From positions 1-47,705 of the forward strand of contig JAGBAK010000049.1 in assembly GCA_017938985.1 (NCBI GenBank): a stretch of 47,705 nt of DNA, given 5' to 3'. This DNA is from Clostridia bacterium (lineage in GTDB: Bacteria; Bacillota; Clostridia; Oscillospirales; Acutalibacteraceae). Made by a program: the position numbers and the translations under genes. The notes under the pieces are model-generated. The model searched no databases and was not told where the DNA came from. It worked only from the letters and a program-made list of their open reading frames with translations. Below are positions 7,692 through 18,725 of this stretch, piece after piece (the first letter of the stretch is position 1; each line of letters begins with the position of its first letter).

Positions 7692-8609
7692 TTATTCTAT
7701 GGTTATAAAATGGTTCGCCCAGCAAAGCTTTCCTCTTTCATCGGGGTCGGCGGCAACACCTATGCCGATTTCGGTAAAATCCGGGTTCATAAGGTTTTTA
7801 TAGTGAGTTCTTGACTCTTTCCACGCCAGACAGACGTCCTCGGGATTATCAAAAACGTAACCGAGGTTTTCGCCTGCCATTCCCGTTTCATATCCCGCAT
7901 CCTTGAAGATTGTAAAACACGTGGAGCCGTCGGGTCTTCTGTGTGAATGTTCGCCCGACCAGGCAATTTCTTCTGCTCTGGCGCACGCCATAACCGTCAT
8001 TTTTTCGTTGAGCCTGAGCGGAGCGATACCTTTTGCCGCTCTGTAGGAATTGATTATGCGAAGATTTTCTTCAATATAATCGCTGTATTTCTCTCTGTTT
8101 TCTCTTGCCGCAGGCAGAAGATCCTCATACGTTGCCGAATAGTTTCGCCTGTTGATAAAACTGCCTGTGTATTCGTAGCCAACGTCAACCCTTTCGCCGT
8201 CAATCATCTGATAATAAACGGTTTTGTATCTGTGTTCAACCACACCGTATCTCAACTCAACCACTTCAATCTGACTGTCTTTATATACGCGTCCTTTTGC
8301 CGTGGTTGCGATGTCGGAAACCTTCGTTGTCGAAGGCACTCTTGTTGTGGGAGCCTTGGTTACAGCCGGTGCTTTTGTTGTTAACGGAGCCGTTGTTGAA
8401 GTCGCTTGCATTGTTGACGGTTCAGCCAACGTTGCGGCATCTGTAAGAAAAATTGTTGAGGGCACTGTTGTCGGTACGGTTGTGCTCTGCGTCAGCAAAG
8501 CTGTTGTTTCTGCCTTGGTTGTTTCAGCGCCGTTATCTTTTTTTGCACAAGCGCCGAAGAGCGACACCGCCGCAACAAGCACCGCCGCCGCAATTATTCT
8601 GAATTTCAC
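7692..8609 (-). CDS. CAP-domain (SCP/YkwD-like) lipoprotein
   Basis: 305 residues with a signal peptide ending in lipobox LFGAC. Residues about 30-100 are a Thr/Ser/Ala/Pro-rich linker with repeated TTKAP-like units, probably a wall-spanning spacer. The C-terminal ~125 residues are a CAP domain: INSYRAAKGIAPLRLN, the histidine motif EHSHRRPDGS, GENLGYVF and the closing HYKNLMNPDFTEIGIG. Bacterial CAP proteins are extracellular and mostly of unknown activity. The gene starts with GTG inside the kinase stop codon (GTGA overlap), with CGGAGG at 7 bases, so the two are translationally coupled. That ties the CAP protein to the output or the sensing function of this two-component system. Confidence 0.88.
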   Translation of the reverse strand: MKFRIIAAAVLVAAVSLFGACAKKDNGAETTKAETTALLTQSTTVPTTVPSTIFLTDAATLAEPSTMQATSTTAPLTTKAPAVTKAPTTRVPSTTKVSDIATTAKGRVYKDSQIEVVELRYGVVEHRYKTVYYQMIDGERVDVGYEYTGSFINRRNYSATYEDLLPAARENREKYSDYIEENLRIINSYRAAKGIAPLRLNEKMTVMACARAEEIAWSGEHSHRRPDGSTCFTIFKDAGYETGMAGENLGYVFDNPEDVCLAWKESRTHYKNLMNPDFTEIGIGVAADPDERGKLCWANHFITIE

Positions 8610-10627
8610 TTTATTTCCTCCGGGTTTTTCTTCTTTCTTTTTGTTTCCGAAGCAGTTTTGTTTTGAACAACGTCAAACAAAATAGAGGCTTTGAACACGT
8701 TGTTTTCTGCTTCAACTTCAAGCTCTGCACCCTGAAGCTCTGCCAGAGTTTTGGATATCGAAAGGCCCAGACCGCTGCCCTCCGTGTGACGTGAACGGTC
8801 GCCTCTTACAAATCGCTCCGTAAGCTCCTGTGCATCAACGTTAAGCTCGTTCTTTGCCGTGTTCGCAATGCAAAGTCTTGCTCTGCCGCCTTCAACTCCG
8901 AGAGTGATTACAACGTCTGTGTCGGGAGCGGCATATTTGCAGGCATTGTTAAAGAGATTGGCAAGAATTCGCCAGAGCCAGCGCCCGTCGCCCATAACGT
9001 AAACGTCCTGCTCGGGCATTGATATTCTGGGCAGCAGACAGCTTTTTTCAAGCTTATAGGCAAACTCCTCAACCGTCTGGTTGATAATGATATTAAGGCT
9101 GATTTTTGACAGCTCGATTTCAATATTGCCCGAGCTTATCTGCGATGCCTCTATAAGGTCATCAAGAAGAAGGTTCAGGTTTTCCGTATGATGCGAAAGA
9201 ATATCAAGATATTTTGCCTTTTCTTTTTTGGTAAGACCGTCTCTTTTGAGCAAATCAACGTAGCTGACAATTGAGGTAAGAGGTGTTTTGATATCGTGCG
9301 AAACGTTGGTGATAAGCTCGCTCTTGAGCCTTTCGCTTTTGATTTCCTGTTCCATTGCTTTGTTGATTTCTTTTTTTATCTGGTCAAGGTTTTTACCGTG
9401 TGCCCTGAAGCTGGCAATGGTAAGCTTGCTTGCAATTTCGTCGCCGAGAACACCCTCCGCAAGGCGCTGACCTTCTTCGCGGATATAGTTGAGGTTGATG
9501 GCTATCATTGCAATAATGGGAATCATAACAAGCCTTGAAAGCGCCCAGATAACAACAAACGTGCTCAGAACGCTTTTGGGTTCAAAAATTTCACTGATAA
9601 CGCCAAGATATACCGTGCCAAGCAGAATCGCCGCTTCCGCAACGATATAAAAGGAAATACCTATGCATATTTTTTTGAAAAGGCTCAGTTCTTTGAACAA
9701 GCGTTTTCTGATTTTTCTGGGTGTTTTTCTCTTGAACTTTCTTACTATTCTGTATGCAATGGTGTTTTTGTAAAGCTTGCCCATCTTTACTCTCACGGAA
9801 AGTGTTGTGAGGAATATCATAAGAACAAGAATAATGGCAACAAAGGTTATCATAACAACCACGTTGTTAAGAACCATACCTACGTCCGCCGCCGTTGTGA
9901 GTCCCATAATAACCCACGAAACGGCAAAAATAACAAGCACAAACAGCACACAGATATCAAACGGTATGCGGTCAATAAAACCCGGCTGAACTTCACCGCT
10001 TTCATTCTCTTTAAGACCTGCATTAATCGTTATAAGCGAAAGCATAATAACAATTACTATTGCCGCCACACCCAGAGCAAAAAACAAAACGTATTTCAGA
10101 TTATCCGCAACCTCAATCCATCGGAATGCGCTTGCATACTTGTCTTTTACGGAAGTGTTGTCTATTTCGGGAAGATAATAATTTATCCTCAGCGGTATTG
10201 TTTCGCCGTTTTCATCATAAATAAAATAGCTCGAGCTGCCGCTGTAAAGTGCTTCGCTGTGCTCTCTTGCAACATCTTCAACGCCGCCGGGTGAGTTGGT
10301 GTAATAAATCTTACCGCTGTTATCGGTAACGTAGAACATAAAGTTTGTTCTTGATTGAGAAAATCTGTCTTCGTAATAATTTATTCTGTAAGTATCGTTG
10401 CCCTGATAGAAGCAGTTATAATAGTCCTGCGCCTGTTCAAGGTCATCAAGCGAATAAATCTGAAAAGCGATGGTTTTCGCCGTTTTTCCGTCATCGCCTT
10501 TTTCATAGAAATTATATTCCACAAGATAAGATATGCCCAGAACACAGCCCACTGCCACAAACGCCATACAAATAAGAACAATTATGGCTGAGGTGCGGTC
10601 TGTTTCGGAACGCATATTATTGCCCAA
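8606..10627 (-). CDS. Sensor histidine kinase with six membrane segments
   Basis: 673 residues. Membrane helix near 12-35, then an external domain to about 170, then further helices near 172-198, 219-243, 247-272, 319-345 and 350-376, so the input part is a multi-pass membrane unit rather than the usual two helices. The kinase core has the H box NVSHDIKTPL (H444), the N box LANLFNNACKY and the G box GSGLGLSISK, of the VanS/PhoR type. The start is TTG: GGAGGGG lies exactly 7 bases before it, while the nearest ATG, four codons later, would be 19 bases away. It is coded 26 bases after the response regulator, its likely partner, and overlaps the CAP gene. The ligand is unknown; the exported CAP and LRR lipoproteins suggest an envelope signal. 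Confidence 0.9.
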   Translation of the reverse strand: MGNNMRSETDRTSAIIVLICMAFVAVGCVLGISYLVEYNFYEKGDDGKTAKTIAFQIYSLDDLEQAQDYYNCFYQGNDTYRINYYEDRFSQSRTNFMFYVTDNSGKIYYTNSPGGVEDVAREHSEALYSGSSSYFIYDENGETIPLRINYYLPEIDNTSVKDKYASAFRWIEVADNLKYVLFFALGVAAIVIVIMLSLITINAGLKENESGEVQPGFIDRIPFDICVLFVLVIFAVSWVIMGLTTAADVGMVLNNVVVMITFVAIILVLMIFLTTLSVRVKMGKLYKNTIAYRIVRKFKRKTPRKIRKRLFKELSLFKKICIGISFYIVAEAAILLGTVYLGVISEIFEPKSVLSTFVVIWALSRLVMIPIIAMIAINLNYIREEGQRLAEGVLGDEIASKLTIASFRAHGKNLDQIKKEINKAMEQEIKSERLKSELITNVSHDIKTPLTSIVSYVDLLKRDGLTKKEKAKYLDILSHHTENLNLLLDDLIEASQISSGNIEIELSKISLNIIINQTVEEFAYKLEKSCLLPRISMPEQDVYVMGDGRWLWRILANLFNNACKYAAPDTDVVITLGVEGGRARLCIANTAKNELNVDAQELTERFVRGDRSRHTEGSGLGLSISKTLAELQGAELEVEAENNVFKASILFDVVQNKTASETKRKKKNPEEIK

Positions 10628-10653
10628 AATGTTTCCCCTCCGTTAACTGCCGT

Positions 10654-11406
10654 TTAATCCCTGTTGCCGTCGGCAGATAATTTGTTTTTTTCCTCCGTTC
10701 CGGGTGAAGGTTTCTTTTCCATTTTATAGCCGTGACCCCAGACAACCTTAAGATAATCGGGGCTGGCAGGATTGATTTCGATTTTTTCTCTGAGGTGGCG
10801 GATATGAACCGTTACGGTGTTTTCTGCGCCCAAAGGGTCGTCCTTCCACACGTGGCGATAGATGTCCTTTGGCGAAAAAACTCTGCCCTGGTTTTCCATA
10901 AAAAACTTGAGAAGCGAAAATTCCGTGGGAGTAAGGTTGACGGGTTCGCCGTCAATGCAAACGGATTTTGACTTGATATCAAGCTCAATGCCGCCGTTAT
11001 AAAGAATAACTTCAGCCGAAGCGCCTGAGGCAGAGCCGCCGAGACGCATATATCTGCGAAGCTGAGATTTGACCCTTGCGCTTACCTCAATGGGATTGAA
11101 CGGCTTTGTTATGTAGTCATCGGCACCTGAATTAAGACCCAGAATTTTATCCATATCCTGCGTTTTTGCCGTCAGAAGGATAACAGGAATGTTTGAATAT
11201 TCCCTGAGCCTTGCAAGAGCTTTCATTCCGTCCATAACAGGCATCATTATGTCCATCAGAAGCAGGTGAATTTCTTCTTTTTCAATAACCTCAAGTGCTT
11301 TTCTGCCGTTTTCAGCTTCAAAAATCCGGTATCCGTCATCCTTAAGATAAATTCTGAGGGCGGTGCGGATATCGGCTTCGTCATCACAAATCAAGATATT
11401 ATACAT
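10654..11406 (-). CDS. OmpR/PhoB-family response regulator
   Basis: 250 residues. The receiver domain (1-118) has the acidic pair in CDDE, the phosphoacceptor D52 in LLMDIMMPVMDG, and the conserved Lys in DYITKPFN. A winged-helix DNA-binding domain follows (about 133-232), recognisable by LTPTEFSLLKFF, TVTVHIRHLREKI and VVWGHGYKM, closest to VanR-type regulators. The last ~18 residues are a polar tail. It is the first gene of the four-gene operon and pairs with the kinase next to it. AGAGGAAG precedes the ATG. Confidence 0.92.
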   Translation of the reverse strand: MYNILICDDEADIRTALRIYLKDDGYRIFEAENGRKALEVIEKEEIHLLLMDIMMPVMDGMKALARLREYSNIPVILLTAKTQDMDKILGLNSGADDYITKPFNPIEVSARVKSQLRRYMRLGGSASGASAEVILYNGGIELDIKSKSVCIDGEPVNLTPTEFSLLKFFMENQGRVFSPKDIYRHVWKDDPLGAENTVTVHIRHLREKIEINPASPDYLKVVWGHGYKMEKKPSPGTEEKNKLSADGNRD

Positions 11407-11666: not shown

Positions 11667-13169
11667 TTAATCTTCGTTAGCTTCCTTTGCAGCCTTAACA
11701 ACGTCTTCGGGAACGGCTTCGCCGTGCTTAACAAAGAGGATGAGGAGAAGGCTGAGCGCAAACATAACGGGGCTGTAAACAAACAGTGACATATATGTGC
11801 CTGAAAGCATACGAACAATACCGTAAACGATGGGGGAAGCAATCTGTGCCGAGAAGGTTGCGGTGTAATAATAGCCTGTGAAAGTACCAACCTTATCAAT
11901 ACCGCCGATATCAAGAACAAGGGGAAGAGTATTAACGGTGATAAGCATATTTGCAAAGCCGCCAAGAACAAGAGCAACCCAGATAAGAGCCATGTTCTGA
12001 ATAACAACGTAAATTGCAAATACAGCCATAAACACTGCAAGACCCATGAGGATTGTCTTTTTTCTGCCGAGCTTCTTGCCGAGATAGCCGGCAGGGATTG
12101 CCGCTGCTGCGGAGCAAACGGCAAAGAGTGTTGTCATAATGGTTGCCTGAGACGTTGTTTTGCCGAGAACTTCTGCTGCGAAAAGTGAGAAGAATGTTGT
12201 GATTGCGTTTGTGCCGCAGAAGAGGAAGAACAGGCCGCCAAGCATACATATAAGGCTCTTTCTTTCTGCCTTTGAAAGCTTTTCGGCTTTTCTTGCAGCT
12301 TTTTCTGCTTTCTTTGCTTCTTTTTCCGCCTTAGCTCTTGCTGCCTCGTCAAGAGCCTGATTTCTCTCGGCAACTGCTTCAAGCTTGCTTGAAGGTTCTT
12401 TTACAAAGAAAAGAATAACAAGCATACCGATAATCATAACAACGGAACCGGTAAGGAAAACATAGGGGAAGGTAAGATATTCGTTTCCGTTTTCAACGGA
12501 GATTTCTGTTTTGGTGAATAAAGTATAAATTGCAACAACGATTGTGCCTGCAAACATACCGATTGCGCTGCCGACACCACCCATAAGGTTGATAATGGCG
12601 TTGCCTTCACTTCGCAGTGCAGGGGGAGTCAGTGCGGGCATAAGTGCAACAACGGGAGCTCTCCAGAGCGACATCGAGAATACGAACAGGATGATGAAGA
12701 GCATTGTGAGCGGCAGAGAACCTTTGAGCGCAACAAAGGGGATAATTGCGAAAAGGAGCGCTGAAACAGGTGCGCCGAAAACGATGAAAGGACGGCGTTT
12801 GCCGAGCTTTGAGTGACAACGGTCCGAAAGCTTACCGAAGGTAGGCTGGAAAATAACGCCGAAGATGTTATCGAACGTCATGATGATACCGATGAAAAGA
12901 GGAACAAGCGTAATACCGCCTGCTGCTGTGGTAACCTCTTCACCCTGTGATTCTGCAAATTTTGCAAGAACGGGGAACATTTCGTTGAGCTTTGCACTCC
13001 AACTTGTAACGGTTGCGGATGCATTAAGCAATCTTTCAAGAATTTTGGTGATGTAGGGATCATAAATTGCCCATGCGATTGAGGAAGCCATAAAGCCGAA
13101 ACCTGTGAGAATGGTTCTCGGGCGGTGAAGCTTGCCGTTCTCTCTTTCGCAGAATAAGGTGTTGTTCAT
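11667..13169 (-). CDS. MFS transporter of the GPH (glycoside-pentoside-hexuronide) type
   Basis: 500 residues with 12 membrane segments. The conserved first cytoplasmic loop contains FGKLSDRCHSKLGKRRPFI, the form of the MFS motif found in GPH/SLC45-like sugar symporters. The central loop is enlarged by a Lys/Ala/Glu-rich helix (repeats such as KAEKEAKKAEKAARKAEK) predicted to be a cytoplasmic coiled coil; this is uncommon in length but occurs in clostridial members. The C-terminus is acidic. Substrate is probably a sugar or glycoside taken up with H+ or Na+, but no glycosidase lies beside it. It has its own promoter, a leader with a dyad and a terminator. The start is supported by AAGGAGAG. 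Confidence 0.8.
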   Translation of the reverse strand: MNNTLFCERENGKLHRPRTILTGFGFMASSIAWAIYDPYITKILERLLNASATVTSWSAKLNEMFPVLAKFAESQGEEVTTAAGGITLVPLFIGIIMTFDNIFGVIFQPTFGKLSDRCHSKLGKRRPFIVFGAPVSALLFAIIPFVALKGSLPLTMLFIILFVFSMSLWRAPVVALMPALTPPALRSEGNAIINLMGGVGSAIGMFAGTIVVAIYTLFTKTEISVENGNEYLTFPYVFLTGSVVMIIGMLVILFFVKEPSSKLEAVAERNQALDEAARAKAEKEAKKAEKAARKAEKLSKAERKSLICMLGGLFFLFCGTNAITTFFSLFAAEVLGKTTSQATIMTTLFAVCSAAAAIPAGYLGKKLGRKKTILMGLAVFMAVFAIYVVIQNMALIWVALVLGGFANMLITVNTLPLVLDIGGIDKVGTFTGYYYTATFSAQIASPIVYGIVRMLSGTYMSLFVYSPVMFALSLLLILFVKHGEAVPEDVVKAAKEANED

Positions 13170-13240: not shown

Positions 13241-13269
13241 ATTATATCATCTTTGATATGGATTTTAAA
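13241..13269 (-). promoter_or_regulatory. Promoter of the MFS gene
   Basis: Read on the minus strand: TTTAAA, 17 bases, TATAAT, with TG at the extended -10 position. Confidence 0.72.
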
Positions 13270-13348: not shown

Positions 13349-13377
13349 TTGACAAACATATCATAGGGGTTTATACT
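13349..13377 (+). promoter_or_regulatory. Consensus promoter of the leader-controlled ABC exporter operon
   Basis: TTGACA, 17 bases, TATACT: the -35 box is a perfect match. It is the strongest-looking promoter in the window. Transcription would start near 13384, leaving only about 28 bases before the leader start codon. Confidence 0.9.
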
Positions 13378-13412
13378 CTAAAACATATAAATTATGAAAG
13401 GAGGCGGACTCA

Positions 13413-13484
13413 ATGACAATCAGAAAGAACCTTTTAACTGCTTGCTCCTCGGGCAAAGTGTTGCGTCCGCACGCCGTTTTATAA
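13413..13484 (+). CDS. Leader peptide of the ABC exporter operon (23 residues)
   Basis: AAAGGAGG lies 8-9 bases before the ATG, as good a ribosome binding site as any in the window. The peptide begins MTIRKNLLTAC and ends with TAA 22 bases before the 5' arm of an intrinsic terminator. Codons 12-15 contain one strand of the antiterminator (see next entries), so translation and RNA folding must interfere. The arrangement resembles the bmrB leader of Bacillus subtilis, which controls the bmrCD multidrug exporter by ribosome-dependent attenuation; I claim similarity of layout, not of sequence. An alternative reading of the region as a 69-residue ORF in another frame starting upstream has no proper ribosome binding site. 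Confidence 0.7.
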   Translation: MTIRKNLLTACSSGKVLRPHAVL

Positions 13485-13523
13485 TTTTTGCGGATATGCT
13501 ATGCACACAGCGCTGCCTGAGGA
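13446..13523 (+). promoter_or_regulatory. Antiterminator: leader-ORF strand pairs with the terminator's 5' arm
   Basis: TCCTCGGGCA (13446-13455) can pair over ten continuous bases, with a single G-U, with TGCCTGAGGA (13514-13523), which is the inner 5' arm and loop of the terminator; the two structures exclude each other. The first strand covers leader codons 12-15. A ribosome moving through these codons would block it and let the terminator form; a ribosome stalled in the first ~8 codons would leave it free and allow read-through. GCGGAC beside the ribosome binding site can in turn pair with GTCCGC (13465-13470), closing a further leader helix. Confidence 0.65.
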
Positions 13524-13545
13524 CAGGAGCGCTGTTTTATTTTTT
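13507..13545 (+). terminator. Intrinsic terminator (attenuator) before the ABC exporter genes
   Basis: ACAGCGCT pairs with AGCGCTGT, continued after one bulged G by CCTG/CAGG with an AGGA loop, and followed by TTTTATTTTTT. It lies between the promoter and the first exporter gene, so all expression of the operon from this promoter must read through it. Confidence 0.9.
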
Positions 13546-13607
13546 ACCAACCTTTTGCTCTCAGTCAACACTATATATACGATTACATTCACGAAAGAGG
13601 TGAAAAA

Positions 13608-15953
13608 ATGGGAAAGAAAGAAAAAAAGAACAAGTCGCAACGCAACGAAAAAAACAAGCACAAGTTTCCCGAGCCGTTGCTGAAAAAGCTTGAGGAAGCA
13701 GGTCTTGACACAAAAAATCTGATTTTCTGCTGCACGGGCGATATGGACAACGACGCCTGTTACCGCAACGCATGGCTCAGCTTTGACGAAAAAGGGCTAT
13801 ACGTTGCTTACGGCACGGAAAAGCTTGTCAAAGCAAAGCACAAAAAGCACGTTGAGCCAAGCTACACGGTTGAAGAAATCACTGCAATTCCCATTGACGA
13901 CGTCGATTCGCTTGAAACCGAGCGATACGTTTCAACAGGCAGACTCATCGCGGTCAAAGACGGCGAACAGCAAAGCGTTGTTCGCTTTTCCGTCGGTAAG
14001 CTGGGTCAGTTTGACAATCTGACAAAAGCTTTCAATTCTTTCAAAGAAAAAGGTGAAGCCGAAATCCCGTCTTCTGCCGAACCCGAAGAAAAAAAGTGCA
14101 AAAAATGCGGCAAACCCTGTCCCGACGGAAAAGACTTCTGCAAAAAATGCGGCAAAAACTCTGCCGTTGCCATCCGTCTTTTCAATTTTTTCGGCGGTTA
14201 CGTGCCTCATATTGTTGCAATAATCGCCATCATGCTGCTCGGCTCCGCTGTCACGGTGTTTATTCCGCAGGTCAGCACCCGTGCGCTGTTTGACGATATC
14301 CTTGCAAACCCCAACGGTCTGCCCGCAGTTGAGCTTATTAAGGCTTTGGGCGTGCTTGTTCTTTCAATTTTCGGCATAAAGCTGCTCAACACCCTGCTGA
14401 CCGTGATTCAGCAGTACCTTACGGGCGGAATTATGCCTAAAGTCATCTACGATATCCGAGTCAAAATTTTCAGGGCGATGCAACGCCTTTCGGTAGGCTT
14501 CTATTCCTCAAAGCAAACGGGCTCCCTTATGGAAAGAGTTATCAGCGATTCCAACAACATTTATTGGTTCTTTGTTGACGGCGTTCCCAGCGTCATAATC
14601 GATACGGCAACCATTATCGGCGTTCTTGCTCTGATGTTCATTATGAGCTGGAAGCTTTCGCTGATTGTTATCGTTGCCCTTCCCCTGCTTATGACGGCAC
14701 TTGTGCTGGGCGATAAATTTTTCAGAAGGCTTCACCACAGAAACTGGCTGTTCGGCGCAAGAGTTTCGTCAATGGTCAGCGATAACATCAACGGACAGCG
14801 TGTTATCAAAGCTTTTGCAAAAGAAAACGATGAATTTGACCGCTTCAGCAAAGCGAGCGAGGATCTGATGAATTCAGAAATCAAGCTCTCTGTTACCGAG
14901 GCAACCGTATACCCGATTTTTGAAGTTTTCATTCTTATGCTGTCAACCGTTGTTCTCGGCGCAGGCGGCGTTCTTGTTGCAAAAGGCGAAATGACCGCAG
15001 GCACACTGCTCACTTATATCGTTTATCTCGAAATGCTCAGAGGTCCGTTTGACTTCCTTTCATGGGTTTCAAACTGGTGGTCAAGATGTGCGGATTCAGC
15101 GCAGAGAGTTTTTGAAATCTGCGACGCCGAGCCCGATATCGTTGAAAAAGAAAATGCCGTCAGCTTTGAAAATCTTCAGGGTGACATCGAAATTAACGAG
15201 CTTGAATTTGAATATGAACCCGCAAGACCGATTATCAGAAAGCTCAGCCTCAAAGTCAAGGCAGGCGATATGCTCGGCATAGTCGGCAAAACGGGTGCGG
15301 GCAAAACAACCATTGCAAACCTTATTGCCAGACTTTACGACGCAAAAGAAGGCTCTGTAAAAATCGACGGCATTGACGTGCGTGACCTCAAACTCACCGA
15401 GCTTCGCCGCAACATAGGTCTTGTTTCACAGGATATCTATCTTTTCATCGGCACGATTGCCGACAACATCCGCTACGCAAAACCCGATGCCACGATGAGC
15501 GAGGTTATTGCTGCAGCCAAGGCGGCTTCGGCGCACGATTTTATTATGAAGCTGCCCGATGCTTACGAAACAAGAGTCGGCGCAGGCGGACAGAAGCTTT
15601 CAGGCGGCGAAAGACAGCGTATTTCCATTGCACGAACAATAATTCAGAATCCCAAAATTCTTATTCTTGACGAAGCTACCGCCGCAATGGATACCGAAAC
15701 CGAGCGCAATATTCAGCATTCGCTCACAAAGCTCAAGGCTGGCAGAACAACGCTTGCCATTGCTCACAGACTTTCAACGCTCCGTGATTCCGATTATCTT
15801 GCGGTTATCGACGGCGGCAAAATTATCGAATACGGTACATATTCCGAGCTTCTCAAGCAGAAGGGCGAATTCTATAAACAGTATAAGATTCAGTCCGAAG
15901 CTCTCAAAACAATCGGCATCGGCACAGGCGAAGCCGAAACGGAGGAGGAATAA
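13608..15953 (+). CDS. ABC half-exporter with extra N-terminal domain and zinc ribbon (first subunit)
   Basis: 781 residues, about 200 more than a standard half-exporter. Residues 1-150 form a highly charged start followed by a beta-rich region of unknown family. A zinc ribbon follows with C164/C167 and C178/C181 (CKKCG...CKKCG). Six membrane helices (about 190-500) and an ATPase domain follow: Walker A GKTGAGKTT, Q-loop SQDIYLF, signature LSGGERQR, Walker B LILDEATAAMD and H-loop AIAHRLS are all intact. It should pair with the second half-exporter two genes downstream; all ATPase motifs in both are canonical, so neither site looks degenerate, unlike many heterodimers. The cargo is unknown: drugs, peptides or lipids are possible. 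GAAAGAGG precedes the ATG. Confidence 0.9.
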   Translation: MGKKEKKNKSQRNEKNKHKFPEPLLKKLEEAGLDTKNLIFCCTGDMDNDACYRNAWLSFDEKGLYVAYGTEKLVKAKHKKHVEPSYTVEEITAIPIDDVDSLETERYVSTGRLIAVKDGEQQSVVRFSVGKLGQFDNLTKAFNSFKEKGEAEIPSSAEPEEKKCKKCGKPCPDGKDFCKKCGKNSAVAIRLFNFFGGYVPHIVAIIAIMLLGSAVTVFIPQVSTRALFDDILANPNGLPAVELIKALGVLVLSIFGIKLLNTLLTVIQQYLTGGIMPKVIYDIRVKIFRAMQRLSVGFYSSKQTGSLMERVISDSNNIYWFFVDGVPSVIIDTATIIGVLALMFIMSWKLSLIVIVALPLLMTALVLGDKFFRRLHHRNWLFGARVSSMVSDNINGQRVIKAFAKENDEFDRFSKASEDLMNSEIKLSVTEATVYPIFEVFILMLSTVVLGAGGVLVAKGEMTAGTLLTYIVYLEMLRGPFDFLSWVSNWWSRCADSAQRVFEICDAEPDIVEKENAVSFENLQGDIEINELEFEYEPARPIIRKLSLKVKAGDMLGIVGKTGAGKTTIANLIARLYDAKEGSVKIDGIDVRDLKLTELRRNIGLVSQDIYLFIGTIADNIRYAKPDATMSEVIAAAKAASAHDFIMKLPDAYETRVGAGGQKLSGGERQRISIARTIIQNPKILILDEATAAMDTETERNIQHSLTKLKAGRTTLAIAHRLSTLRDSDYLAVIDGGKIIEYGTYSELLKQKGEFYKQYKIQSEALKTIGIGTGEAETEEE

Positions 15954-16565: not shown

Positions 16566-18725
16566 ATGAAAAACAAAGTGCGGTTTGACCTGACCGCAGA
16601 CGGAAAACTATGCGATGGTGAGCTGATTTTTGAAAACGGCTGCCTGCTTGCCGTCTGCAACGGCGAAACCGTTTTCAGCCATAACCTTGACGGAGTTGAA
16701 GAGCTTCTGCAGCGCTCATACGTAGGCTGCGGATGCCTTGAGCTTGTTCAGAAAGAAACAAGCGCCGAAATGGAAAACTCCATCTTTGTTTGCCGCTTTT
16801 CGCTTTCGCAGGCAAACGAAATCGGCGAATTCTGCAAGGTTGTGAACCACTATATAAAAACAGGCGAAGAAACCGAGCTTTCCCGTGAGGATTTCAGAGT
16901 TTGTCCCAAGTGCGGCAAGCACTATCCCAAGGGCATTGACGTATGCCTTTTCTGCGTTGAAAAAAGCTATATATTAAAACGTGCATATAATCTTGCAAAG
17001 CCTTACCTCGGCGGTCTTGCGATTTCGGGAATTTTTCTTTCAATCTCAACCGCCCTCGGTGCAATGCTGCCCGTGCTCAACGCAAAAATGCTTGACGGTT
17101 ACCTCGCAAACAACACAATAACAACCGAAGAAAAAATCAGAGGTATCGTTATTCTTGTTGTTCTTATGGCACTCACGCAGATTGGCGGCAGGGTTTTTTC
17201 CATTATTTCCTTAAGACGGACAAACAGAATCAGCTCACGCTTCTCAAACGATTTGCGCACGCTTGTTTACGACAAGGTACAAAGACTCTCGCTTTCATCA
17301 ATGTCAAAGAAAACCTCGGGCGACCTGATGAAAAGAGTCACAAACGATACCGAAGTTGTGCGCCGTTTTGTGACGGAGCACGGTATGTACGCCATCGAAA
17401 AGCTGATAATGTTCATCGTTATCCTGATTATTCTTATCAGCATAAGTCCGCTTCTGACCCTGCTTGTGTTTATCCCCGTTCCCCTTGTTATTCTTGCTAT
17501 AAGAGGCTTCTGGAAGTTTATTCACATCCGTTATGAAAAACAGTGGAGATGCAATTCAAGGTCAAACTCGGTGCTTCACGATATTGTCAAGGGTATCAGA
17601 GTTGTTAAAACCTTTGGCAGCGAAGAAAGAGAAATAAAAAAATTTGACAGTCTCTGCCTTCGTCTTGCACAGATTTGCGCAAGCAACGAACAGCTCTGGG
17701 CAAGAGTTTTTCCGTTTCTCTCGTTCTTTATGGGCGTTGGCGAATTCCTTGTGCTTTATTTCGGCGGCAGAATGGCAATCAGCGGTCGCATTTCGGTTGG
17801 TGAACTGCTTGAATTCACGCTTTTCCTTGCCTACATTTATCAGCCTTTACGCTGGATCTCAACTCTGCCACGCAGACTCGGTGAAGTTGCAACAAGCCTT
17901 ATAAAGATTTTTGAGGTTATCGACGAAAAACAGAGCGTTGAGGATTCTGAAAATCCCGTTGAGGCAACGCTTGACGGCGACATTGTTTTCAGCGACGTAC
18001 GCTTCGGCTACAAGGCATATGAGCCTGTGCTCAAGGATATCAACCTCACCGTAAAACAGGGCGAAATGATTGGTCTTGTCGGTCATTCGGGCGCAGGCAA
18101 ATCAACGCTTATCAATCTGATTATGCGTCTTTATGACACCGACGCAGGCAGCATCACGGTCGGCGGCAAAGATATAAAACAGATGCGCCAGAGCGATTAC
18201 AGAGAAAAGGTCGGCGTTGTTTTTCAGGAAACGTTCCTGTTTGCAGGCACAATTTATGATAACATCGCCTATGCACGCCGCACCGCAGAACCGAGCGAGG
18301 TTATTGCTGCGGCAAAAGCGGCAAACGCTCACGAATTCATTATGAAGCTGCCCGACGGATATAACACTATCGTCGGCGAAAACGGTCATAACCTTTCCGG
18401 CGGTGAAAGACAGCGCATTTCAATCGCAAGAGCTGTTTTGAGAAACCCCGAAATTCTTATTCTTGACGAAGCAACGTCGGCGCTTGACCCCGAAACCGAA
18501 AGTCTTATTCAAGAGGCGCTCGCAAAGCTCGTCAAGGGCAGAACAACCTTTGCCATTGCGCACAGGCTTTCAACTCTGCGCAACGCAGACCGCCTTGTTG
18601 TTATTGAAAAAGGCAAAATCGCAGAGGTCGGCACTCACAGAGAATTGTTGCTTCATAACGGCATATACGCAAAGCTTGTTATGGCTCAGCGCCAGACGGC
18701 AAAGCTTTCAAATCAGAACATATAA
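16566..18725 (+). CDS. ABC half-exporter with extra N-terminal domain and zinc ribbon (second subunit)
   Basis: 719 residues. Residues 1-105 are a beta-rich cytoplasmic region whose layout parallels the first subunit but whose sequence is different. A zinc ribbon follows (C113/C116 and C127/C130, in CPKCGKHYPKG and CLFC), then six membrane helices and an ATPase domain with Walker A GHSGAGKST, Q-loop FQETFLF, signature LSGGERQR, Walker B LILDEATSALD and H-loop AIAHRLS. Both subunits share a near-identical run between Q-loop and signature (EVIAAAKAA...HEFIMKLPD), as expected for sister half-transporters. It ends the operon at a terminator. The shared N-terminal plan in both subunits suggests that the extra domains are part of the machine, perhaps a docking site for DUF1854. 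Confidence 0.9.
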   Translation: MKNKVRFDLTADGKLCDGELIFENGCLLAVCNGETVFSHNLDGVEELLQRSYVGCGCLELVQKETSAEMENSIFVCRFSLSQANEIGEFCKVVNHYIKTGEETELSREDFRVCPKCGKHYPKGIDVCLFCVEKSYILKRAYNLAKPYLGGLAISGIFLSISTALGAMLPVLNAKMLDGYLANNTITTEEKIRGIVILVVLMALTQIGGRVFSIISLRRTNRISSRFSNDLRTLVYDKVQRLSLSSMSKKTSGDLMKRVTNDTEVVRRFVTEHGMYAIEKLIMFIVILIILISISPLLTLLVFIPVPLVILAIRGFWKFIHIRYEKQWRCNSRSNSVLHDIVKGIRVVKTFGSEEREIKKFDSLCLRLAQICASNEQLWARVFPFLSFFMGVGEFLVLYFGGRMAISGRISVGELLEFTLFLAYIYQPLRWISTLPRRLGEVATSLIKIFEVIDEKQSVEDSENPVEATLDGDIVFSDVRFGYKAYEPVLKDINLTVKQGEMIGLVGHSGAGKSTLINLIMRLYDTDAGSITVGGKDIKQMRQSDYREKVGVVFQETFLFAGTIYDNIAYARRTAEPSEVIAAAKAANAHEFIMKLPDGYNTIVGENGHNLSGGERQRISIARAVLRNPEILILDEATSALDPETESLIQEALAKLVKGRTTFAIAHRLSTLRNADRLVVIEKGKIAEVGTHRELLLHNGIYAKLVMAQRQTAKLSNQNI

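Follow-up and report, generated by a model that had tools for sequence, protein, structure and literature searches.

Upstream of a zinc-ribbon ABC exporter operon in a Clostridia bacterium lies a leader that most probably acts as a transcription attenuator under ribosome control, in which three helices compete and which ribosome arrest just after initiation opens; we put the probability of this reading at about 80%. The DNA analyzed, referred to here as the window, is the whole contig stretch of 47,705 nucleotides. The first-pass annotation of the window had described a promoter, a Shine-Dalgarno sequence, a 23-codon ORF and a terminator before the exporter gene, and direct reading found all four where it had placed them (Table 1). 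Its 12-bp terminator stem had to be redrawn: the hairpin and T tract are present, but the stem consists of 8+4 pairs with one bulged G at 13515. This hairpin begins 22 nt past the leader stop and is visible in the fold, while the list returned by a simple terminator scan does not contain the hairpin at 13507. The pairing of ORF codons 12-15 with the terminator arm and loop (helix B), over ten bases with one G-U, was confirmed by reading. To this description the present analysis adds helix A, an anti-antiterminator, and a wider family of leaders.

The minimum-energy fold of 13384-13550 contains helix A beside the terminator and beats 200 of 200 dinucleotide shuffles (z -2.97). Additionally, the duplex between the window ORF and its terminator reaches -23.4 kcal/mol, a value equalled by 1 of 1000 ORF shuffles. 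Helix D, which at first looked by eye like part of the ON state, is a minor candidate feature: by eye it is visible in seven of nine exporter leaders, but was not seen in L009, in L011 or in the wider leader set.

Table 1. Features of the leader and the exporter operon in the window.
Feature	Position	Strand	Basis
Sigma-70-type promoter, TTGACA-17-TATACT	13349..13377	+	11/12 consensus bases; TTGACA 13349-13354, TATACT 13372-13377
Shine-Dalgarno sequence of leader ORF, AAAGGAGG	13397..13404	+	Read directly
Helix A 5' strand, GCGGACTCAAT; Shine-Dalgarno flank and beginning of start codon	13404..13414	+	Fold and comparison
Leader ORF, MTIRKNLLTACSSGKVLRPHAVL; 23 codons plus TAA	13413..13484	+	Read directly; frame-keeping spacings in relatives
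Helix B 5' strand, TCCTCGGGCA; antiterminator, codons 12-15	13446..13455	+	Duplex tests
Helix A 3' strand, GTTGCGTCCGC; anti-antiterminator, in final third of leader ORF	13460..13470	+	Fold and comparison
Helix D 5' strand, TCCGCA; alternative partner of helix A 3' strand, fits inside B	13466..13471	+	By eye
Helix D 3' strand, TGCGGA	13489..13494	+	By eye
Intrinsic terminator, hairpin 13507-13535 and T tract to 13545	13507..13545	+	Fold, script
Helix B 3' strand, TGCCTGAGGA; terminator 5' arm and loop	13514..13523	+	Duplex tests
ABC exporter half 1, 781 aa; zinc-ribbon-like CxxC...CxxC before membrane domain	13608..15953	+	Pfam PF00664, PF00005; motif read
DUF1854 protein, 171 aa	15956..16471	+	Pfam PF08909, E 1.6e-30
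ABC exporter half 2, 719 aa; also CxxC...CxxC	16566..18725	+	Pfam PF00664, PF00005; motif read

For both exporter halves and the DUF1854 protein the nearest NCBIfam name is 'cyanophycin metabolism-associated', with every match below its cutoff, and DUF1854 is named in no paper of the literature searched. Of the PDB sequences that match the two halves (585 and 591), the best 60 do not include the BmrC/BmrD chains (7m33), a ranking that speaks somewhat against orthology with BmrC/BmrD; for L125, a related locus, these chains are within the best 60 PDB matches. On the opposite strand, a divergent MFS transporter gene (11667-13169) starts approximately 180 bp upstream of the leader promoter, with promoter-like minus-strand sites near 13241-13269. 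Adjoining the MFS gene, also on the minus strand, is a histidine kinase and response regulator pair (8606-11406).

In order to compare the leader among relatives, we located the exporter N-terminal domain in 32 of the 45 genomes of the genus and read the upstream DNA for 30 of the 32. A leader with ORF, helices A and B and terminator stands upstream of nine of these 30 orthologues, and no other exporter of the 30 is as close in protein sequence as these nine (66-100% identical). The other 21 are without the leader, although for L016 the upstream sequence available was just 161 nt long. Five of the nine exporter-leader loci come from metagenome-assembled 'Clostridia bacterium' genomes from the gut of goat, yak, sheep and roe deer. 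Reading of the nine leaders found TTGACA and TATACT upstream in each, and the Shine-Dalgarno sequence is AAAGGAGG in seven and AAAGGGGG in two.

Lack of a conserved leader ORF in relatives had been set beforehand as a result that would refute the attenuator; instead, the ORF is kept at these nine of 30 orthologous loci, encoding peptides of 18-23 residues. The distance from the ATG to a conserved GNG codon is 45, 45, 45, 36, 45, 36, 33, 36 and 33 nt in the nine exporter leaders, all multiples of three. From the GNG codon to the terminator the distances are 46, 48, 44, 45, 46, 50, 46, 51 and 45 nt, with no such restriction. Thus, the spacings provide comparative evidence that the leader is translated.

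Lack of covariation was the other refuting result set beforehand, and here too the outcome was the opposite: the antiterminator proved in permutation tests to be re-made from different letters. Because helix B has been rebuilt with new sequence in relatives, the mutual exclusion of terminator and antiterminator first read from the window holds up. In the nine exporter leaders, the duplexes between each ORF and its own terminator average -14.8 kcal/mol versus -9.5 kcal/mol when swapped, and 23 of 362,880 permutations were as good. Shuffles of the leader's own ORF gave duplexes as good in 60/1000 cases for L007, 128/1000 for L009 and 423/1000 for L014. The duplexes of L009 and L014 do not stand out beyond these shuffles, and not every member is strong alone.

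The same test was applied to 49 leaders of the wider set described below, leaving out L113 with its doubtful terminator. Own duplexes average -13.3 kcal/mol versus -8.6 kcal/mol swapped. Ranked among unlike arms, a leader's own terminator arm came first in 18 of 49 cases and within the top tenth in 31. With 17 unlike terminators (few common 6-mers), none of 200,000 permutations reached the observed sum. Helix B is weak in some individual leaders, for example L009, L014 and L117; L078, L080, L084 and L117 rank low among swapped pairings, a ranking for which the terminator arm was cut at the loop, and this shortens B in their AT-rich subfamily. One subfamily (L074, L077, L078, L080, L116 and L117) has a near-fixed antiterminator strand, TGATAAAATCA-like in the ORF and TGATTTTATCA-like in the terminator, so that pairing can extend through the loop into the terminator 3' arm. 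An IKSxAxLSA-like stretch is common to most peptides of this subfamily.

Helix A is conserved as well: with the register picked by best match and no shuffle control applied, 48 of 50 leaders form nine or more of its 11 pairs; L083 and L086 have only 8 of 11 pairs. A MAFFT alignment of 34 of the 50 leaders, made without reference to the structure, has 96.8% of helix A cells paired. This alignment omits near-repeats together with L009, L012, L083, L086, L088 and L113, and leans to the clearer cases. Its helix A covariation score of 0.309 lies above every shuffle (0.221, sd 0.010) and every slid register (at most 0.108). The three two-sided changes were reached by 75/500 shuffles, and the 14 further pair types by 12/500. 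Within the nine exporter leaders, six of the 11 helix A pairs are invariant and one shows a two-sided change; there the combined structure of A and terminator beats its controls, with most of the signal coming from the terminator.

The second helix A strand is not tied to one reading frame: 36 leaders have it in frame 0, two have it in frame 1, and in the remaining 12 (L055, L083, L086 and the nine exporter leaders) it lies in frame 2. A strand held in differing frames indicates that RNA is kept, not peptide. We also considered the exporter-leader ending [VAE]L[CRW]P as an arrest peptide and rejected it. Its invariant third positions match helix A instead, and in most GNAT-type leaders this strand of the helix is translated in a different frame (VLSA-type); RNA pairing therefore accounts for the ending better than peptide arrest does.

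Since B and A covary, a constitutive terminator behind a chance upstream ORF, with no regulation, is the explanation to which we give the least credence. Intrinsic terminators and short ORFs are indeed common, but the order promoter, Shine-Dalgarno, ORF, terminator is kept in nine of nine exporter leaders, and the design recurs before unrelated genes. Strong conservation of helix A as RNA could also be expected if A and B formed together as a pseudoknot in a ligand-binding, riboswitch-like RNA with an incidental ORF. The 0-5 nt between the end of the first B strand and the end of the GNG codon, where the second A strand starts in the nine exporter leaders, would fit an H-type pseudoknot. Yet if a longer piece of the ORF is admitted, the strongest B duplex in L006 and L011-L014 extends into the second A strand, and in these leaders the two helices therefore vie for the same bases. 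Nor does B show the sequence conservation expected of a binding site. Together with an ORF of 16-28 codons at a Shine-Dalgarno sequence in 50 leaders and the frame-keeping spacings of the exporter leaders, these points leave the pseudoknot highly improbable.

The wider set was collected by covariance-model searches. Model R1, built from the nine exporter leaders, was used on the genus and the order. Matches at E ≤ 0.01 in the genus were examined, together with L106 above that limit; R1 followed by inspection by eye gave 32 leaders, with at least one in 18 of 45 genomes and two or three in 11. One of the 32, L101, is cut by a contig end before the terminator and was excluded from tests. Across the order, 19 of 394 genomes, the window's own included, matched at E 0.01 or better, and 15 of the 19 were judged genuine; a strict sequence pattern matched 12 of the 394, and its reversed control none. 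After 50 distinct leaders had been tested, a search of the class with model R2 (built from 34 leaders) matched 11 of 391 genomes, again including the window's own, and eight loci in seven other genomes were accepted and added. Among these class-level loci, the L126 leader has 11 of 11 helix A pairs, while L127 and L131 have only 9 of 11, in a shifted register in L127. Seven candidates were scored per genome in the order, class and phylum searches, so the leader counts are lower bounds and the family is likely larger than they indicate.

Beyond the class, a phylum-wide sample of 398 genomes gave one match besides the window (L132), judged false by eye. The window's own genome holds no second leader copy, its two matches at E of approximately 0.3 being judged false, and the pattern GGTGGACAARATGAN{25,55}TTTTGTCCG gave 0 matches in viral contigs. 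L082, L085, L087, L090, L128, L129, L130, L132, L133 and L134 were judged by eye to be non-leaders and dropped, as were L104 and L106, in which the searches recognized no leader; L107, L109, L110, L112, L114, L115, L118 and L119 duplicate loci already collected. Rfam has no match in the window at gathering scores, and in 16 related loci its four matches up to E 0.5 all lie off the leader. The nearest of the Rfam matches to a leader is a weak NsiR1 on L081, ending approximately 45 nt before it. A terminator hairpin with T tract was found by script in all 50 distinct leaders, that of L083 being hand-corrected and that of L113 doubtful.

Outside the exporter set there are 41 leaders; 38 of them have a called first gene, and the Pfam scan covered 30 of these 38 genes. 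The 30 comprise 16 GNAT-type genes, three ABC exporters, one HflX, two LytTR response regulators, one methyltransferase, five others and two without a match. At the eight class-level loci the first genes are four GNAT and four ABC transporter genes, and among all 38 scanned first genes outside the exporter set there are 20 GNAT-type genes, seven ABC transporters and one HflX. The L126 gene, from another family of the class, encodes a zinc-ribbon exporter 27% identical to that of the window over 495 aligned positions. The HflX GTPase behind L083 scores above the NCBIfam cutoff. Its start lies approximately 320 nt past the terminator, and the first gene of L092 starts 167 nt past its terminator; with such long gaps, control by the leader is less sure at these two loci. 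The L073 leader begins approximately 190 nt past a 23S rRNA 3' end (Rfam; L073:1-136 and 329-485) and has a GNAT first gene. LytTR-type response regulators lie behind the L060 and L098 leaders and, by likeness, behind L096.

In classic attenuators the ribosome stalls at leader codons whose charged tRNA is in short supply, and amino-acid shortage had been offered in the first-pass annotation as one possible signal. The leader codons give this no support. Although codons 1-5 often specify Thr, Met, Arg or Ile and runs of three occur in a few leaders (Ile in L084 and L088, Thr in L105, Val in L113), no run in the set is longer than three, the run amino acid differs between leaders and codons 3-5 vary. 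The window leader peptide has no single-amino-acid run longer than two. Additionally, the scanned downstream genes are exporters, GNATs, HflX and others, with no biosynthesis or tRNA synthetase genes among them. We therefore regard starvation control as very unlikely.

To ask where a ribosome would have to stand, we folded each transcript up to the terminator loop with the ribosome footprint masked, in 49 leaders (L113 left out). In these models, B formed in 49, 49, 46, 38, 31, 13 and 6 of the 49 leaders with the P site on codons 1 through 7, respectively, and in only one or two leaders with the P site on codons 8-12. Footprints of 13/10 and 17/16 nt gave a similar result. The scan discriminates poorly at codons 1-2, where swapped terminators still gave B in 26-37 (codon 1) and 28-35 (codon 2) of 49 leaders; with the P site on codon 3 they gave it in 16-27. 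At codon 4 the swapped control gave 13-21 versus 38 with the own terminator, and at codon 5 it gave 9-10 versus 31. The modeled codon window is consistent with the original proposal that a ribosome stalled early in the leader turns the exporter on, with the control being weak at codons 1-2. B also formed in 28 of the 49 when the ribosome stood on the last codon, which makes slow release at the leader's stop codon a possible further trigger. When no ribosome was present, A formed in 36 of the 49 at equilibrium, and B was favored over A in 15. The window leader is among those 15, so an OFF state without translation depends on A forming first; A is made approximately 50 nt before B becomes possible, and from this kinetic argument we infer the OFF state of the window.

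The proposed switch would work as follows. With the ribosome absent or departed, the leader start site would pair with the leader's own last codons as helix A, blocking B, so that the terminator would form and the exporter operon would remain untranscribed. A ribosome traversing the middle of the leader would cover the first strand of B, and termination would again follow. Only a ribosome held at approximately codons 1-5 would cover the start-site strand of A while leaving the first B strand free; B could then capture the terminator 5' arm, and RNA polymerase would continue into the exporter. The signal would be arrest right after initiation, which the exporter may in turn relieve.

The most likely inducer would be an early-acting ribosome inhibitor with little codon preference, of the pleuromutilin, lincosamide, streptogramin A or tetracycline type. 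These classes are suggested by analogy with other systems: pleuromutilins, lincosamides and streptogramin A arrest ribosomes after initiation (PMC10201436), and tetracycline and retapamulin arrest them at the start codon (PMC12121999). The same three-helix attenuator might instead sense general translation speed or initiation frequency as set by growth, nutrients or stress. The leader peptides across the whole set share little besides a frequent MT start, with no drug-specific arrest motif visible. Several downstream genes are not known resistance genes, and the LytTR regulators and the sialidase-like and HNH-like genes are not obvious ones. Rare codons alone, moreover, alter read-through in bmrB of Bacillus subtilis and set its basal level (PMC4191407). 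Against a general sensor, HflX and ABC exporters recur downstream, and codons 1-5 are where early-acting inhibitors hold ribosomes (PMC10201436, PMC12121999). On balance, we consider sensing of translation speed unlikely and inhibitor-induced arrest the better account of the signal.

The principle of such a switch is known from bmrB, hflXr and cplR. The leader family itself was not found in the literature searched, including the accessible text of four surveys (PMC8632094, PMC11109978, PMC6429828, PMC2965389), with supplements and subscription journals outside that scope, and it may be described in literature beyond the search. We regard these leaders as a new family of considerable size that belongs to a known kind, the window exporter being one member. 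A bolder reading, to which we give slightly less than even odds, is that they are one undescribed, fast-rewiring family of cis-switches. They would then form a regulon without a regulator, tying unlinked Clostridia genes (DUF1854 exporters, many GNATs, HflX, LytTR regulators, a methyltransferase) to ribosome arrest at the first codons, as unrecognized intrinsic defenses against ribosome-targeting compounds of the gut. If so, a start-site strand re-paired by the last codons, together with an ORF strand complementary to the terminator arm and loop, would be a sequence signature. It would mark genes that uncultured gut Clostridia switch on when their ribosomes are blocked and would supply function hypotheses for exporters without an assigned substrate and for unassigned GNAT enzymes. 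The prediction is that compounds arresting at codons 1-5 induce, while those arresting in the middle of the leader do not.

Several characterized systems resemble the window leader in part, judging from the accessible text of the papers cited. In toiL/topAI-yjhQP of Escherichia coli, tetracycline and retapamulin hold ribosomes at the start codon and the downstream genes come ON; unlike the window leader, toiL frees a ribosome-binding site and prevents Rho termination, with no intrinsic terminator (PMC12121999). The uORFC-6-1 motif before hflX in Bacillales likewise has a leader ORF within covarying RNA structure and a ribosome-rescue gene downstream. It differs in its taxonomic range, its RLR motif and a structure wholly downstream of the start codon, which helix A includes (PMC8632094). 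Closer in layout is cplR of Clostridioides difficile, with a 5' hairpin predicted to sequester the leader ORF, an antiterminator and a terminator; its induction was assayed with two drugs whose action comes directly after initiation, retapamulin and lincomycin. However, its leader ORF is MRI (three codons), its gene encodes an ABC-F factor and translational control operates too (PMC10201436).

The rli80/hflXr leader of Listeria monocytogenes shares an anti-antiterminator, antiterminator and terminator with the window, as well as a short ORF over the anti-antiterminator. There, loss of the start codon abolishes expression (OFF) and loss of the anti-antiterminator fixes it on (PMC6310831). The related leader L083 precedes an HflX GTPase. 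The rli80/hflXr ORF has 14 codons and an RLR arrest motif (PMC6310831), whereas the Arg-Leu-Arg motif is absent from the window peptide; the likeness drawn here is one of design. Similar to the window, bmrB/bmrCD combines a translated leader ORF, alternative stem-loops, a terminator with an antiterminator and a two-half ABC exporter downstream, and blocking translation of the bmrB leader abolishes induction by lincomycin (PMC4191407). The bmrB leader has 53 residues and its terminator lies inside the ORF (PMC4191407), whereas the window leader is shorter and ends before its terminator. The window exporter halves also carry CxxC motifs, with the DUF1854 gene between them, unlike bmrCD. The bmrB and hflXr papers also describe three alternative stem-loops or an anti-antiterminator (PMC4191407, PMC6310831); compared with bmrB, the window leader builds its anti-antiterminator from its own start site and last codons.
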